Below are positions 1 to 41,557 of a stretch of DNA of 64,000 nucleotides, one piece after another. Position numbers and translations under genes: made by a program. Origin of the DNA: Paracoccaceae bacterium (GTDB taxonomy: Bacteria; Pseudomonadota; Alphaproteobacteria; Rhodobacterales; Rhodobacteraceae). Under the pieces are notes generated by a model. That model did no database searches and was not told where the DNA came from. It worked only from the letters and a program-made list of their open reading frames with translations. The stretch's first letter is position 1; each line of letters opens with the position of its first letter. The stretch lies in assembly GCA_014239455.1 (NCBI GenBank), contig JAAZYV010000007.1, positions 1 to 64,000 of the forward strand, in the 5' to 3' direction.

Positions 1-246
1 CCATTTAAATTTGCTAATGCTCTCTTGTCAAATGATGAAAATATAGAAAATTCTCAATTTTATTCGGCTTTAAACAATGGTGAAGAAACTCAATTAAATC
101 TCCCAAAATCTGTCCCCGTATATCTAATTTATCGTACTGTTATTATTGACGATTTTGGATCAATTAATTATCGTCCAGATATCTATGGCCGCGATGCCTT
201 GTTATATATGTCATTAATTTCTTCTGGTCTTAATATCGATGTTTGA
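1..246 (+). CDS. L,D-transpeptidase (YcbB/LdtD-type), C-terminal fragment, truncated by left edge
   Basis: Frame 1 is open from base 1 (PFKFANALLSNDEN...VPVYLIYRTVIIDDFGSINYRPDIYGRDALL). The 'PVYLxYxT...DDxGxxxxRPDIYGRD' tail is typical of YcbB-family enzymes. Confidence 0.75.
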   Translation, partial: PFKFANALLSNDENIENSQFYSALNNGEETQLNLPKSVPVYLIYRTVIIDDFGSINYRPDIYGRDALLYMSLISSGLNIDV

Positions 247-35251: not shown

Positions 35252-36349
35252 CTATGCATTGATATTTTTAGCTAGAGCTCCTAGCAAGAAATCGTCTAAT
35301 TTCCCATCGAGCACACCCTGAGAATCAGAGGTTTCAACTTCAGTTCTAAGATCTTTGACCAATTGATATGGTTGCAATACGTACGACCGTATTTGATTGC
35401 CCCATCCAGCTTCACCCTTTGAATCATGTGCGTCTTGGATATCCTTGTTAATCTTTTTAATTTCCAAATCATATAACCTTGATTTAAGTGCTGCCATGCA
35501 ATTCGCCCTATTTTGGTGCTGAGACTTCTCCGAACTGGTTACAACAATTCCTGTTGGCAAATGGGTTATCCTCACAGCAGAATCTGTAGTATTTACATGT
35601 TGACCACCTGCCCCTGAGGATCGAAATGTATCAACTCTCATTTCTGACGGGTTTAAATCCACAGCAAAGTTATCGTCAATTACGGGATAAACCCAAACAG
35701 AACAAAAAGAGGTATGCCTACGAGCGGAACTATCAAAAGGAGAAATCCTGACTAATCTATGGACGCCGCTTTCCACCTTCAACCATCCATAAGCATTTGT
35801 CCCTTTGATTTTGTAGGAAATTGATTTGAACCCAGCCTCATCTCCAGGGTTTTGTGAGATTATTTCGATCTGAAACCCTTTCCTTTCTGCCCATCTAACA
35901 TACATTCTAGCTATCATCATTGCCCAATCACAACTTTCTGTACCTCCAGCTCCAGCATTTATTTCTAAAAATGTGTCATTTGAGTCTGTTTCCCCATCCA
36001 TTAAGGCTGACCTTTCAACATTAAAAACATCTTGCCTTAATTGGAACAGATCATTTTCAGCATCAACCACAACTTCTTGCTCTTTTTCCTGAATCCCAAG
36101 TTGAATTAACGTAACACTTTCATCTAATTTTTTTTCAATTTCGGAGTATTGTTCTAAAAAATCTTCTAACCCCTGCCTCTCTTTCATTAACGCACGGGCA
36201 CTTTTAGGGTCTTCCCAAAAGCTGTTATCACTTGTAATAGCATGAAGTTCATCAAGCCTTTCTATAGAACGAACCAGGTTTCGCCTTTTCGCCAGGATAT
36301 CTAAAGATTTTCTTATTTCTTCAATTGTTTCCAGAACTTCTGCTCTCAA
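35252..36349 (-). CDS. prfB: peptide chain release factor 2 (no programmed frameshift)
   Basis: 'EINAGAGGTESCDWAMMIARMY', 'RSSGAGGQHVNTTDSAVRITHLPTGI'; TTG at 36349 gives MRAEVLETIEEIRKSL; single continuous frame. Confidence 0.95.
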   Translation of the reverse strand: MRAEVLETIEEIRKSLDILAKRRNLVRSIERLDELHAITSDNSFWEDPKSARALMKERQGLEDFLEQYSEIEKKLDESVTLIQLGIQEKEQEVVVDAENDLFQLRQDVFNVERSALMDGETDSNDTFLEINAGAGGTESCDWAMMIARMYVRWAERKGFQIEIISQNPGDEAGFKSISYKIKGTNAYGWLKVESGVHRLVRISPFDSSARRHTSFCSVWVYPVIDDNFAVDLNPSEMRVDTFRSSGAGGQHVNTTDSAVRITHLPTGIVVTSSEKSQHQNRANCMAALKSRLYDLEIKKINKDIQDAHDSKGEAGWGNQIRSYVLQPYQLVKDLRTEVETSDSQGVLDGKLDDFLLGALAKNINA

Positions 36350-36476
36350 AATGGTACTCCAGATTTTGATAAATAAACTTATAACAATATTTCTTAGTAT
36401 ACTCTCGTATAGGCTTTTGTTATCCAAAAATAGTTTCTCTAAAGGATTTAATCAAACCATAATCCTCCCACAGCAC

Positions 36477-38573
36477 TTATTTAAATCTTGATTCATGCCT
36501 GTCTTGACTCACAATTCGTTGAATTAGAGAAAGGCATGAACCAGAAAATATATCAGAATCAATCTTTAAATTTGATTTGTTTGCCTCTATATGACAGCCA
36601 AAAATCTTATCAGAAACTATTCCTATGACTGAATCGAAATTTAATTCTTTATCAGTATGATGTTTACCAATTAGTGTTATTTTGCCATTCCCATCTGATT
36701 CTGCAATTACATCAAAATACACTAGTGGAAAAAATTCGAAACCGTTTTCCTTAACTTTTCGCACGAAAAAGTGACTGCCTATTTCATTACTTATGTGATG
36801 AAGAAGTGCTTTCTTGTCTTTTTCACACTGCCTACATTTCTCTATTTTTAATTTCTTAGGAAAAACCTTTTGTTCTCCTTTAGAAATTTGGAGCAAAACG
36901 TGTCCCTGTTTTTTTAAACTTCCTATTAGCAGCATATTATAAGCTGATATTACATCAATAATAGTAGCCTGGCTATCGACTCTAAAGTGTTTTTGTGATT
37001 CTAAATTTTCCTTAATGAAGCCAAAATTCATAAGAATTTTGATGCTAGCATCATCTAATAAATCTTTCGGAATCTCTCTGTTTGAATATGCAAATATATC
37101 TTCAACATTAACTAGAACATTTAAATCAGGACCACCGCCATCAAAAAGCGTTTTAGAAGCAGCAGTTAAAAAAATAGGCATTAAGAATTCTAATCTAGGT
37201 CTTCTCACTTCAGTTACTTTGTTTACACTACTCAATTGGTAGCTATAACCGCCCTCTAGAGCTAAAATATCTCCTGTTCCTAAATCTGATATGATGACAC
37301 CTCCATCAAATAATGGCCTCTGCTTGTAAAACCAAATTGGTGTTGAATCTTTTAAATCGCTTTTATCTTGAACATATATGACACTTCCTATCTTTAAATT
37401 TGGTTTCAACCCCTCTATAAAATGTAGTTTTTCCATTTCTGGAGAACGGTCTGTCACAACTAATGAGTTTTCACCCTGAATATCCACTACCACTGCTAAA
37501 TTCCATCCATAGTTTGACTGAGGTAAATTCTCATTTTTAAGCTCTGCGAACCAGTTTAATTTCTTATTTCTGTGATCAACTTCAATATGAGTTACAGGTA
37601 ATCCATATTCTCTTACTGCTAAATTTAAGGTTTGAATTTCCAATTTCAAAGCATTTCTTGCAATTTTTTGCAAATTAGAATCGATAGAAGTTCTAATCGA
37701 TAATCCACCCTGATTAACATACCTTTCTCCTATTTCAGTATTTACCTGCGCTCTAATTTCCTCACCCAAAAAATCTCTAAATAACTCTAGTTTTATTCCA
37801 TCTAAAATCTCTCCAGTCAAAACCGTTTGCAGTTTGGATCTTTTCTCAGAATTTAATTTACCTGTAGAGAGATAACCATTTTCAACCATCTCATCTAAAA
37901 CAAAATTTCTTCTCTGAATCGCATTTTCAGGATTACTGAGTGGATTATATGCCTGAGGTGATTTAGGAAGGGCAGCCAAATAAGCTGCCTCACGTGGCAA
38001 TAAATCCTCTAAACTCTTGGCAAAATATGTTTTTGCGGCTGCGGAAACCCCATAAGCTCCCTCGCCCAAATAAACCTCATTGAGGTAAATTTCCAATATT
38101 TCACTTTTGGTTAGAACTTTTTCCAATTGCACAGCAAGGATTAGTTCTCTAATTTTTCTTTCAAAACTTCTTTCTCCTGAAAGAAGAAATCCTTTTGTTA
38201 CCTGTTGAGTGATGGTTGAAGCTCCCCTTAACTTTGCTCCTTTGGAGAAATCAATGATGGCTTTTAGAAGACCTAGAACATCATACCCAGAATGCTTATA
38301 AAAATTTTTATCTTCAGCACTTATGAATGCATGTTTCACCAATTCTGGAATTTTCTTTATTGGAACAAATTCTCTTTTCTCTGAATAAAAGAACCCCAAG
38401 ATCTGTTCATTTCGATCCAAAACTTTACTGATAGTTTTTGGCTTGTATTCTACGATCTCAGAAACGCTTGGGAGTTGATTGCTATAAAATTCAATTAAAG
38501 ATCGAGTAAACAAAAAGGCTATAAAGCCAAATAATAAGAAATATATTATGATCTTCTTCAATTTATCTATCAT
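36477..38573 (-). CDS. mrcA: penicillin-binding protein 1A-like GT51 glycosyltransferase with degenerate transpeptidase domain
   Basis: GT51 'FISAEDKNFYKHSGYDVLGLLKA', 'GASTITQQVTKGFLL', 'EIYLNEVYLGEGAYGVSAAAKTYF'. C-terminal half alignable to PBP1A but lacks the catalytic motifs. Confidence 0.88.
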   Translation of the reverse strand: MIDKLKKIIIYFLLFGFIAFLFTRSLIEFYSNQLPSVSEIVEYKPKTISKVLDRNEQILGFFYSEKREFVPIKKIPELVKHAFISAEDKNFYKHSGYDVLGLLKAIIDFSKGAKLRGASTITQQVTKGFLLSGERSFERKIRELILAVQLEKVLTKSEILEIYLNEVYLGEGAYGVSAAAKTYFAKSLEDLLPREAAYLAALPKSPQAYNPLSNPENAIQRRNFVLDEMVENGYLSTGKLNSEKRSKLQTVLTGEILDGIKLELFRDFLGEEIRAQVNTEIGERYVNQGGLSIRTSIDSNLQKIARNALKLEIQTLNLAVREYGLPVTHIEVDHRNKKLNWFAELKNENLPQSNYGWNLAVVVDIQGENSLVVTDRSPEMEKLHFIEGLKPNLKIGSVIYVQDKSDLKDSTPIWFYKQRPLFDGGVIISDLGTGDILALEGGYSYQLSSVNKVTEVRRPRLEFLMPIFLTAASKTLFDGGGPDLNVLVNVEDIFAYSNREIPKDLLDDASIKILMNFGFIKENLESQKHFRVDSQATIIDVISAYNMLLIGSLKKQGHVLLQISKGEQKVFPKKLKIEKCRQCEKDKKALLHHISNEIGSHFFVRKVKENGFEFFPLVYFDVIAESDGNGKITLIGKHHTDKELNFDSVIGIVSDKIFGCHIEANKSNLKIDSDIFSGSCLSLIQRIVSQDRHESRFK

Positions 38574-38868
38574 TTAATCAGCAATTGGTATGAGATTTAA
38601 GATTAATCGACGTACCACTTCAAACTTAAAGTCAAGTCGCTCATGATTCAACGGATCATACCCTATTTTTTTGACCACAACTTGATATGGAATTTGACAT
38701 TGCAAAATAATTTGATAATTAAGTACTGTAACTTAAATTGCAAGATACTTATTACACAAGTAAGATAAGTATAATTTTATACTAAGAAAAGGAATTCTAG
38801 CGGGAACAAGAAGTTATTTGCCGCATTTATAAAGTGATAAAGTGATATTACTTTAACCAACTCATCTC

Positions 38869-38886
38869 ATCTGGCTTAGCTCAGAT
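38869..38886 (+). other. small hairpin-forming inverted repeat in the long rne leader
   Basis: atctggcttagctcagat: five paired bases plus a possible G-U, 6-nt loop. Confidence 0.3.
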
Positions 38887-39055
38887 TTAATTGTAACAAC
38901 TTTGAGACTGAAGACGATAAATATTTAAAATTTGTCAAGAACTGCGTTTAAAAAGATTAACTTTGTGGTTCCTATCTCAGTCACAAATCAGGAAGTGAAT
39001 AGTAATGATGACAACCTCAAGGAATAAATCATGAAGCATTCACAGGTGGTATTTT

Positions 39056-41557
39056 ATGCAAAAAAAATTGCTGATAGATGCATCGCATCGAGAAGAAACA
39101 AGAATTGTTTTGCTGGATCGCGATCAAGTAGAGGAATTTGATTTTGAATCCGGACAGAAAAAGCAACAAGCTGGCAACATTTTTCTGGCTAAAGTAACAA
39201 GGGTTGAGCCCTCTCTACAAGCTGCTTTTTTAGATTATGGCGGAAACAGGCATGGATTCCTTGCGTTTTCTGAAATTCATCCAGATTATTATCAAATTCC
39301 CGTAGCTGATAAAGAAGCCCTTCTTGCTGAAGAAAGGGAGATTGAGAATCAATCTGAAGATTACTTAGAAAATGATATTGGCGATGAGGTAAACGATAAC
39401 AAATTACCATCGTATGCAGAGCTTAGAGAGGATCCAAGTGAATTTGTTACGTCAGACCCACTGGATATAGAAGAAAACAATCTAGGTTTAGACAATTTTT
39501 CTCCTGAGAAGAAAAAGGGATCAAAAAAATCCAATATTGTCCCACTCGAAAAAAACCTGGAAAATAGGGATACCTTAGCAAGAGGTGAAGAAACTGATCA
39601 ATCATTAGATTCGGATTCGAAAGAAAAAAATACTAAGCCACTCAAACCAAAAAAGAGGTTCAGAAAAAACAGATACAAGATTCAAGAAGTAATAAAGGTT
39701 AGACAGGTACTTCTAATTCAAGTGGTTAAAGACGAAAGAGGCAACAAAGGGGCAGCTCTAACGACTTATATGTCCTTAGCCGGAAGATATTGTGTGCTTA
39801 TGCCAAATACTGCTAGAGGCGGAGGGATATCACGAAAGATAACAAACATAGGCGACCGAAAAAAACTGAAAGAAACGGCCAGTGAATTCTCGATACCAGA
39901 TAAGATGGGGTTAATAATTAGAACAGCTGGAGCTAAAAGAACTAAAACTGAAATAAAAAGAGATTTTGAATACCTGCTAAGACAGTGGGAACAGATTCGT
40001 GATTTAACCTTAAAATCGATTGCGCCTTGTCCAATTTATGAGGAGGGTAGCGTCATCAAAAGATCTATACGAGATCTTTATACTAAAGAAATTAATGAAA
40101 TCATTGTGGAGGGTGAAATAGGTTTTAAAGAGGCCAAAGATTATATGAAAATGCTCATGCCATCGCATGCAAAAAAAATTAAAAACTATGAAAAAACTCA
40201 ACCAATTTTTTCTTACTATGGGATAGAAAACTACCTTTCGGCAATGTTTAATCCAACCGTTCAGCTAAAATCAGGTGGATATATTGTTATCGGAATTACA
40301 GAAGCCCTAGTGGCAATTGATATCAATTCAGGAAGATCTACAAAAGAAAGTGGCATTGAAGCTACAGCCCTGAGAACAAATTTAGAGGCTGTTGATGAAA
40401 TCGCCAGACAATTGAGAATGAGAGATCTAGCTGGTCTAATTGTAATAGATTTTATTGATATGGAAGAGAAAAAGAATAACATTTCTGTAGAACGAAAGAT
40501 GAGAGAGAGTCTAAAATTAGATCGTGCCCGCATACAAGTAGGGAGAATATCGTCTTTTGGGTTATTAGAAATGTCTCGCCAACGGCTACGCTATGGCATG
40601 GTGGAAGCTACTACGAAACCTTGTTCAAATTGCCATGGCACGGGACTCACAAGGTCAAATGAAAACCTGGCATTGGAAATCCTAAGATCTTTGGAGACTA
40701 AGAAACCACATAACGGCGCTATGGAGGCTGTTGTTAAGGCTCCAGTAGAAGTGGCTAACTACTTGTTAAATCAAAAAAGACGTAACCTTGAGATAATTGA
40801 AAAACGGTTAAGAATCAATATAACGATCAACGCGGATATCAATATCAACAATCCAAACTTTGTTTTTGAATTAAATAAATTACCTGAGATCCCTGATGAC
40901 CCACATTCAGGAAAGGTTATCACAATAGATGGAGCAAAGAATGACCCCCAAGAAGAAAATGAACCAACTAACAACACTGAATCTATTCAAGGAAATCTAA
41001 CCGAACAGGTTGGAAGAAAGCAAAAGAGACGTCGAAGACGAAATAATAAGAGCAAGCAAATCGATGCCGAGATGACCTCAATTACAGACATAAGTTTGAA
41101 TCAAAATAACTCAAAAAATCTGGAAAAAATTAGTAAAATTAAGGAACCTTTAAACGAAAATAATTCGTCAAAAAAAGAACACAAGTCAGATATCCCGGAA
41201 GTCTCAGAAGATAAGAAAACTGGCGAAGTAAAAGCAAATAAAGATCAAACCAAAGACGGTTCTACTGATACACTAATGAAACAACCCAGAAGAAGATCTA
41301 CTCCGAGAAACACGGTTAAGGAAAAGCCAAAAAAAGTACCCGATAAAAAATTGGCTACTACATCACCGTCTGTAGAAGAATCCGTTAAAACGAAGCCAAA
41401 GCAAAGAATTGCTAAACCAGTAAAAGAAGTCCTAAAAGAGAATGAATTGCAATCAGAACCAAACGGTAAAAAAAACACAAAAGAATTTCTAATTAATAAT
41501 GAAAAAGGATCCAGAACGGGTTGGTGGTCCAGACATAAATCACGAGAAGATAAGTAA
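39056..41557 (+). CDS. rne: ribonuclease E/G
   Basis: S1-like N-terminus interrupted by an acidic/basic insert, RNase E catalytic core, Zn-link 'CSNCHGTG', disordered basic C-terminus. Confidence 0.95.
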   Translation: MQKKLLIDASHREETRIVLLDRDQVEEFDFESGQKKQQAGNIFLAKVTRVEPSLQAAFLDYGGNRHGFLAFSEIHPDYYQIPVADKEALLAEEREIENQSEDYLENDIGDEVNDNKLPSYAELREDPSEFVTSDPLDIEENNLGLDNFSPEKKKGSKKSNIVPLEKNLENRDTLARGEETDQSLDSDSKEKNTKPLKPKKRFRKNRYKIQEVIKVRQVLLIQVVKDERGNKGAALTTYMSLAGRYCVLMPNTARGGGISRKITNIGDRKKLKETASEFSIPDKMGLIIRTAGAKRTKTEIKRDFEYLLRQWEQIRDLTLKSIAPCPIYEEGSVIKRSIRDLYTKEINEIIVEGEIGFKEAKDYMKMLMPSHAKKIKNYEKTQPIFSYYGIENYLSAMFNPTVQLKSGGYIVIGITEALVAIDINSGRSTKESGIEATALRTNLEAVDEIARQLRMRDLAGLIVIDFIDMEEKKNNISVERKMRESLKLDRARIQVGRISSFGLLEMSRQRLRYGMVEATTKPCSNCHGTGLTRSNENLALEILRSLETKKPHNGAMEAVVKAPVEVANYLLNQKRRNLEIIEKRLRINITINADININNPNFVFELNKLPEIPDDPHSGKVITIDGAKNDPQEENEPTNNTESIQGNLTEQVGRKQKRRRRRNNKSKQIDAEMTSITDISLNQNNSKNLEKISKIKEPLNENNSSKKEHKSDIPEVSEDKKTGEVKANKDQTKDGSTDTLMKQPRRRSTPRNTVKEKPKKVPDKKLATTSPSVEESVKTKPKQRIAKPVKEVLKENELQSEPNGKKNTKEFLINNEKGSRTGWWSRHKSREDK

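Follow-up and report, generated by a model that had tools for sequence, protein, structure and literature searches.

Class A penicillin-binding proteins (PBPs) are bifunctional enzymes, and the need for both of their activities in one molecule has been tested mostly with engineered mutants. Departures from the bifunctional state are already known in the form of monofunctional glycosyltransferases (GTs), engineered PBPs with a dead transpeptidase (TP) and class A PBP loss in intracellular bacteria. MtgA carries a GT51 domain without transpeptidation. In E. coli, a PBP1b S510A mutant still supplies glycan for crosslinking by YcbB, a situation in which the GT activity is needed and the TP activity is not (PMC5089857), and obligate intracellular bacteria lacking class A PBPs crosslink their peptidoglycan without a PBP1A transpeptidase (PMC5814848). 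The canonical alphaproteobacterial PBP1A (MrcA; represented here by the loci L038 and L054 and by Agrobacterium PBP1a, PMC8546619) is encoded next to prfB and is composed of an N-terminal transmembrane helix, a GT51 domain, a middle domain and a TP fold.

The PBP1A homologue described here shares this neighbour and this organization, with about 40% identity over the first 470 residues, but it lacks the SxxK, SxN and KTG motifs and is about 150 residues shorter, without the C-terminal tail and with only part of the TP domain. It also differs from MtgA, which belongs to another lineage, has about 36% identity to it in the GT domain only and contains nothing comparable to its TP-like domain of about 275 residues; a separate MtgA gene (a 246-aa frame) is present in the same genome. 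Like PBP1b S510A, it would be a class A PBP whose TP is dead but whose GT works and provides strands to an L,D-transpeptidase, the GT activity being predicted here and the pairing with a YcbB-type enzyme proposed by analogy; S510A, however, was engineered as a single substitution and acts under drug selection, while the present protein is natural, found genus-wide and devoid of all the motifs. In intracellular bacteria the class A gene is missing, while in the genus studied here, which we take to be marine (from the records and general knowledge), a GT half persists beside a TP half that has become a pseudo-domain. PBP1C (PbpC), another class A PBP of the genus, differs in that its SxxK and KTG motifs are intact. 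In a limited search of the open-access literature, we found no report of a natural, lineage-fixed PBP1A with a dead TP.

The locus and its glycosyltransferase half

The window (the whole stretch of 64,000 nucleotides analysed, on contig C7) has a GC content of 36% and comes from a draft assembly (G000) of 0.997 Mb in 29 contigs, estimated to be 73% complete, with named Rhodobacteraceae/Paracoccaceae assemblies and one of single-cell style as its near relatives. The features relevant to this work are the following:

36477..38573, minus strand: PBP1A homologue with a non-catalytic transpeptidase-like half, 698 aa (continuous open reading frame; orthologues in five congeners)
37887..38399, minus strand: GT51 (Transgly) domain, residues 59-229, catalytic motifs intact
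36480..37304, minus strand: transpeptidase-like domain, residues 424-698, catalytic motifs all lost
37176..37199, minus strand: former SxxK site, residues 459-466, PRLEFLMP (Ser to Glu462, Lys to Met465), from the alignment with intact relatives
36657..36668, minus strand: former KTG site, residues 636-639, GKHH, from the same alignment
35252..36427, minus strand: prfB (release factor 2), downstream neighbour, in synteny conserved at L038 and L054, where PBP1A is intact
39056..41557, plus strand: rne (ribonuclease E/G, named from its sequence), divergent upstream neighbour, common to the members of the dead-PBP1A group
1..246, plus strand: C-terminal end of a YcbB-type L,D-transpeptidase truncated at the contig edge, with 95-96% identity to the enzymes of G003 (537 aa) and G006 (533 aa)

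The open reading frame, strand, length and quoted strings that an earlier note on this DNA had given for the protein all match the sequence. Orthology with PBP1A is indicated by the adjoining prfB and by the closest relatives in trees and searches, which are Rhodobacterales PBP1A proteins.

As the earlier note had claimed, the GT51 half is intact. Transgly (PF00912) was the sole match in a Pfam scan (206.8 bits for a cut-off of 27, E-value of 2.3e-61), the EDxxFxxH, GxSTITQQ and ILExYLN motifs are present, and the motif residues are invariant among the homologues. The best NCBIfam family is PBP_1a_fam, yet its curated cut-off is missed (295.5 vs 508.75 bits), the match spanning only positions 1-294 of the 535 in the profile (the first half of the protein), and PBP1A structures were matched by phmmer against the PDB up to about residue 470. 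The cut-off of the MtgA family (mono_pep_trsgly) is missed as well (143.8 vs 182.65 bits). This homologue and MtgA are the GT51 proteins of the assembly, and judging from its motifs the former has presumably kept its GT activity.

Loss of the transpeptidase motifs in a retained fold

No match to the transpeptidase family PF00905 was found in the 698-aa protein, even at E<=10. The SxxK position is fixed by the conserved P466, which aligns RQPGSSFKP of intact relatives, whose first serine is the catalytic one, with P459-R-L-E462-F-L-M465-P466. The replacement of SxxK that had been proposed is thus real, although its placement (GSSFKP to RLEFLM) needed correction, the catalytic Ser becoming Glu462 and the catalytic Lys Met465. 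At the Ser position Glu462 occurs in four homologues and Lys in those of G001 and G002, and at the Lys position the other homologues have Asn, Glu, Tyr or Phe. The KTG site reads GKHH, GKHK or GWN across the six genus homologues; in the window protein (G636-K637-H638-H639) the Lys is kept and the Thr and Gly are lost, so the reported absence of KTG stands, while the stretch quoted for it stops just short of the true site. Lys637 is present in four of the six proteins, and G001 and G002 have neither Glu462 nor Lys637. The SxN block is also gone, as had been suggested, with no SxN aligned at the site in any of the six when compared with intact relatives.

Displaced motifs were considered as well. 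S449-V-N-K aligns with the FNRATQ segment and is absent in G003 (SNINQ), no other SxxK string falls at a TP motif position, and Y-S-N at 496-498 is unconserved in G005, G001 and G002; no conserved SxxK or KTG was found elsewhere in the protein. A CxxC pair (C580 and C583, at about 36825-36836, minus strand), found in the TP domain of most aligned alphaproteobacterial PBP1A proteins, is kept in four of the dead proteins and lost in G001 and G002.

An AlphaFold2 model built with 32 homologues (mean pLDDT of 76, pTM of 0.67) had PBP1A, PBP2 and PBP1b as top Foldseek matches in the PDB, with TM-scores of about 0.4-0.56; since these scores are modest, we claim no atomic detail of the cleft. When residues 412-698 were modelled in isolation (pLDDT of 63, pTM of 0.70), all 34 matches at E<=1e-3 were class A PBPs, with OXA-48 following at 1.8e-3. 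The core strands (422-440 and 631-664), the C-terminal helix and a helix at 461-478 that begins close to the former serine position are retained in the model, in which region 574-629 has low confidence and is unreliable. These predictions suggest that the TP-like half is still folded like the TP domain of a class A PBP.

Spread, history and selective constraint

The homologue is present in six of the 12 genomes of the genus (G000, G001, G002, G003, G005 and G006), with identities of 36-82% and GC contents of 25-36%, and all six proteins lack SxxK, SxN and KTG, which are present in the aligned intact relatives. The same dead state is common to all the homologues found in the genus, and no second PBP1A, intact or otherwise, was found in any of the six carriers. 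The GC content of 25% at the PBP1A locus of G001 and G002 (L009 and L010) is very low for Rhodobacterales, 10 points under that of the congeners.

PBP1A was not found in the assemblies of G004 and G007-G011. In G009 and G010 the contig stops immediately upstream of prfB, a gene that is absent from the remaining four assemblies; because these assemblies break at or miss the locus, we do not claim a loss. Incompleteness alone would produce the six absences with a probability of about 7e-4 if they were independent, which is doubtful, given that the breaks in G009 and G010 coincide.

The six dead proteins lie on one side of a single branch with 100/100 support in the whole-protein tree, and they form the same single clade (100/100) in a tree of residues 1-330 only, with no TP part, both trees carrying long-branch warnings. 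The simplest history is a single inactivation that preceded the divergence of the G001/G002 lineage from that of G000, G003, G005 and G006.

In a family survey of 397 genomes (395 outside the genus and two genus members), full-length matches to a profile of the TP-like half came from the two genus members only (422-428 bits), the next best match reaching 50 bits in an 838-aa protein. The 395 other genomes gave no full-length equivalent, only weak matches, which among those listed were mostly in intact-length proteins and in a few shorter frames, the latter read in part. Seventeen family genomes had no C-terminal match; among those read, L198 is intact, L195, L196, L197 and L199 have only a truncated PBP1A piece, mostly at contig ends, and L200, L201 and L203 have PBP1C instead. 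These last three (G207, G068 and G416, respectively) have low GC contents (35-38%), PBP1C-like proteins and no PBP1A match in genomes that are 91% (two) and 74% (one) complete, which suggests that PBP1A has been dispensed with repeatedly in reduced Rhodobacterales genomes. A record (L045, CP059262.1) titled Exiguobacterium profundum, a Firmicute, contains a PBP1A of Rhodobacterales type, grouped with that of Rhodobacter; this record is probably mislabelled.

Selective constraint was estimated as dN/dS (Nei-Gojobori, with bootstrap) in four close pairs of dead proteins, values which are approximate on AT-rich genes: 0.06-0.11 for the GT domain, 0.29-0.36 for the middle domain and 0.33-0.40 for the TP-like domain, the latter with upper 95% limits of 0.48-0.62. 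In eleven control pairs of intact PBP1A, some of them near saturation, the corresponding ranges were 0.01-0.16, 0.08-0.18 and 0.02-0.15. The GT half is thus as constrained as in bifunctional PBP1A, and the TP-like half, above the controls and below 1, is relaxed about fourfold, not neutral. The frame is continuous, as the earlier note had observed, and stays open across saturated divergence; for 265-275 neutral codons at these GC contents, the equilibrium probability of an open frame is about 1e-9 to 1e-11, although selection against truncation alone could also account for it. Of the gradual loss of catalysis that had been envisaged, the loss itself holds, but the picture of a protein still decaying does not, since the dead state is common to the six homologues and the domain remains under constraint. 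The TP-like half is an ancient, fixed and still constrained non-catalytic domain.

Probable crosslinking partners and competing explanations

Inventories of class A and class B PBPs and of L,D-transpeptidases, which the earlier note had called for, revealed no other PBP1A in the window's own assembly; two class B PBPs (PF00905 proteins, both with intact SxxK and KTG) and L,D-transpeptidases are present. The tail recognized earlier at the left edge of the window is indeed that of an L,D-transpeptidase, with 96% identity to the last 81 residues of the 533-aa YcbB-type enzyme of G006. The genus as a whole has class B PBPs as well, together with SEDS proteins and DD-carboxypeptidases, each in all 12 assemblies. 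YkuD L,D-transpeptidases occur in eight of the 12 (none was seen in G005, which is only 67% complete), and a PBP1C whose SxxK and KTG are both intact occurs in G001, G002, G006 and G009. Amidase_3 (AmiC) was found neither in these 12 genomes, an absence with a probability of about 8e-9 from incompleteness alone, nor in the intergenic region of the window (38574-39055), and in L054 it is encoded directly upstream of PBP1A (named from its translation). AmiC thus appears to be lacking from the genus, where cell separation must rely on other hydrolases. The loss of AmiC need not be tied to that of the TP motifs, because L038 has lost AmiC at this locus and has an intact PBP1A.

Based on these results, we consider it likely that the protein is, as the earlier note had inferred, a GT-only PBP1A whose glycan other enzymes crosslink in trans, and that its pseudo-TP has been retained for scaffolding or regulation; six species have lost the TP motifs, the GT51 motifs are invariant and no second PBP1A was found in any of them. 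In this mechanism, the GT51 domain would polymerise lipid II, and the protein, having lost Ser, Lys, SxN and KTG, would neither transpeptidate nor be acylated by beta-lactams (covalent penicillin binding is accordingly predicted to be negative). The pseudo-TP, whose role is probably structural or regulatory, would serve in folding, in dimer or partner contacts, or in strand guidance, and the nascent glycan would be crosslinked by PBP2, FtsI, PBP1C where present, and L,D-transpeptidases, including those of the YcbB type.

That the motif loss is an error of sequencing, assembly or frame in 36500-37250 has a negligible probability: the assembly is an incomplete draft, but the independent assemblies G003, G005 and G006 share the loss in open frames, and purifying selection is visible at the codon level. 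It is very improbable that a rearranged active site still makes the protein a transpeptidase, a reading for which Lys637 and Glu462 (in place of Ser), each kept in four of the six proteins, might be invoked; no nucleophile is common to all six, both residues are missing in G001 and G002, and the SxN block is gone.

The other two alternatives concern what the pseudo-TP does, since it may have a specific role or may merely be tolerated. It could be a useless, decaying tail, with selection acting on the GT alone, as the relaxed dN/dS, the roughly 150 residues already gone and the apparent disorder of region 574-629 would allow; we regard this as unlikely, given a dN/dS clearly below 1 in all four pairs and the persistence of the domain, with conserved core residues and a TP-like fold, in six species across saturated divergence. 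Conversely, it could be a neofunctionalised pseudo-transpeptidase, binding peptidoglycan or a partner for instance, instead of a passive scaffold. The residual constraint and conserved stretches such as FDSLIG.VSDK.FGCHIE, along with the Cys pair kept in four species, point in this direction, but in the alignment with intact relatives these stretches fall on ordinary TP core strands (WFIGF...GCYIG), and so may be fold residues only, and Pfam detects no new domain, which leaves this reading decidedly doubtful.

A GT-only PBP1A with a retained scaffold or regulatory surface accordingly remains our preferred explanation. More speculatively, and with rather low confidence, the dead domain might now be a regulatory or scaffold module in a naturally evolved rewiring of the sacculus, in which polymerisation has been split from crosslinking and the strands go largely to L,D-transpeptidases, alongside the loss of AmiC. 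The genus provides a natural experiment, its PBP1A, predicted to be insensitive to beta-lactams, having a TP half that is dead and yet kept folded across deep divergence, so that the TP domain can be tested directly for a non-catalytic role.
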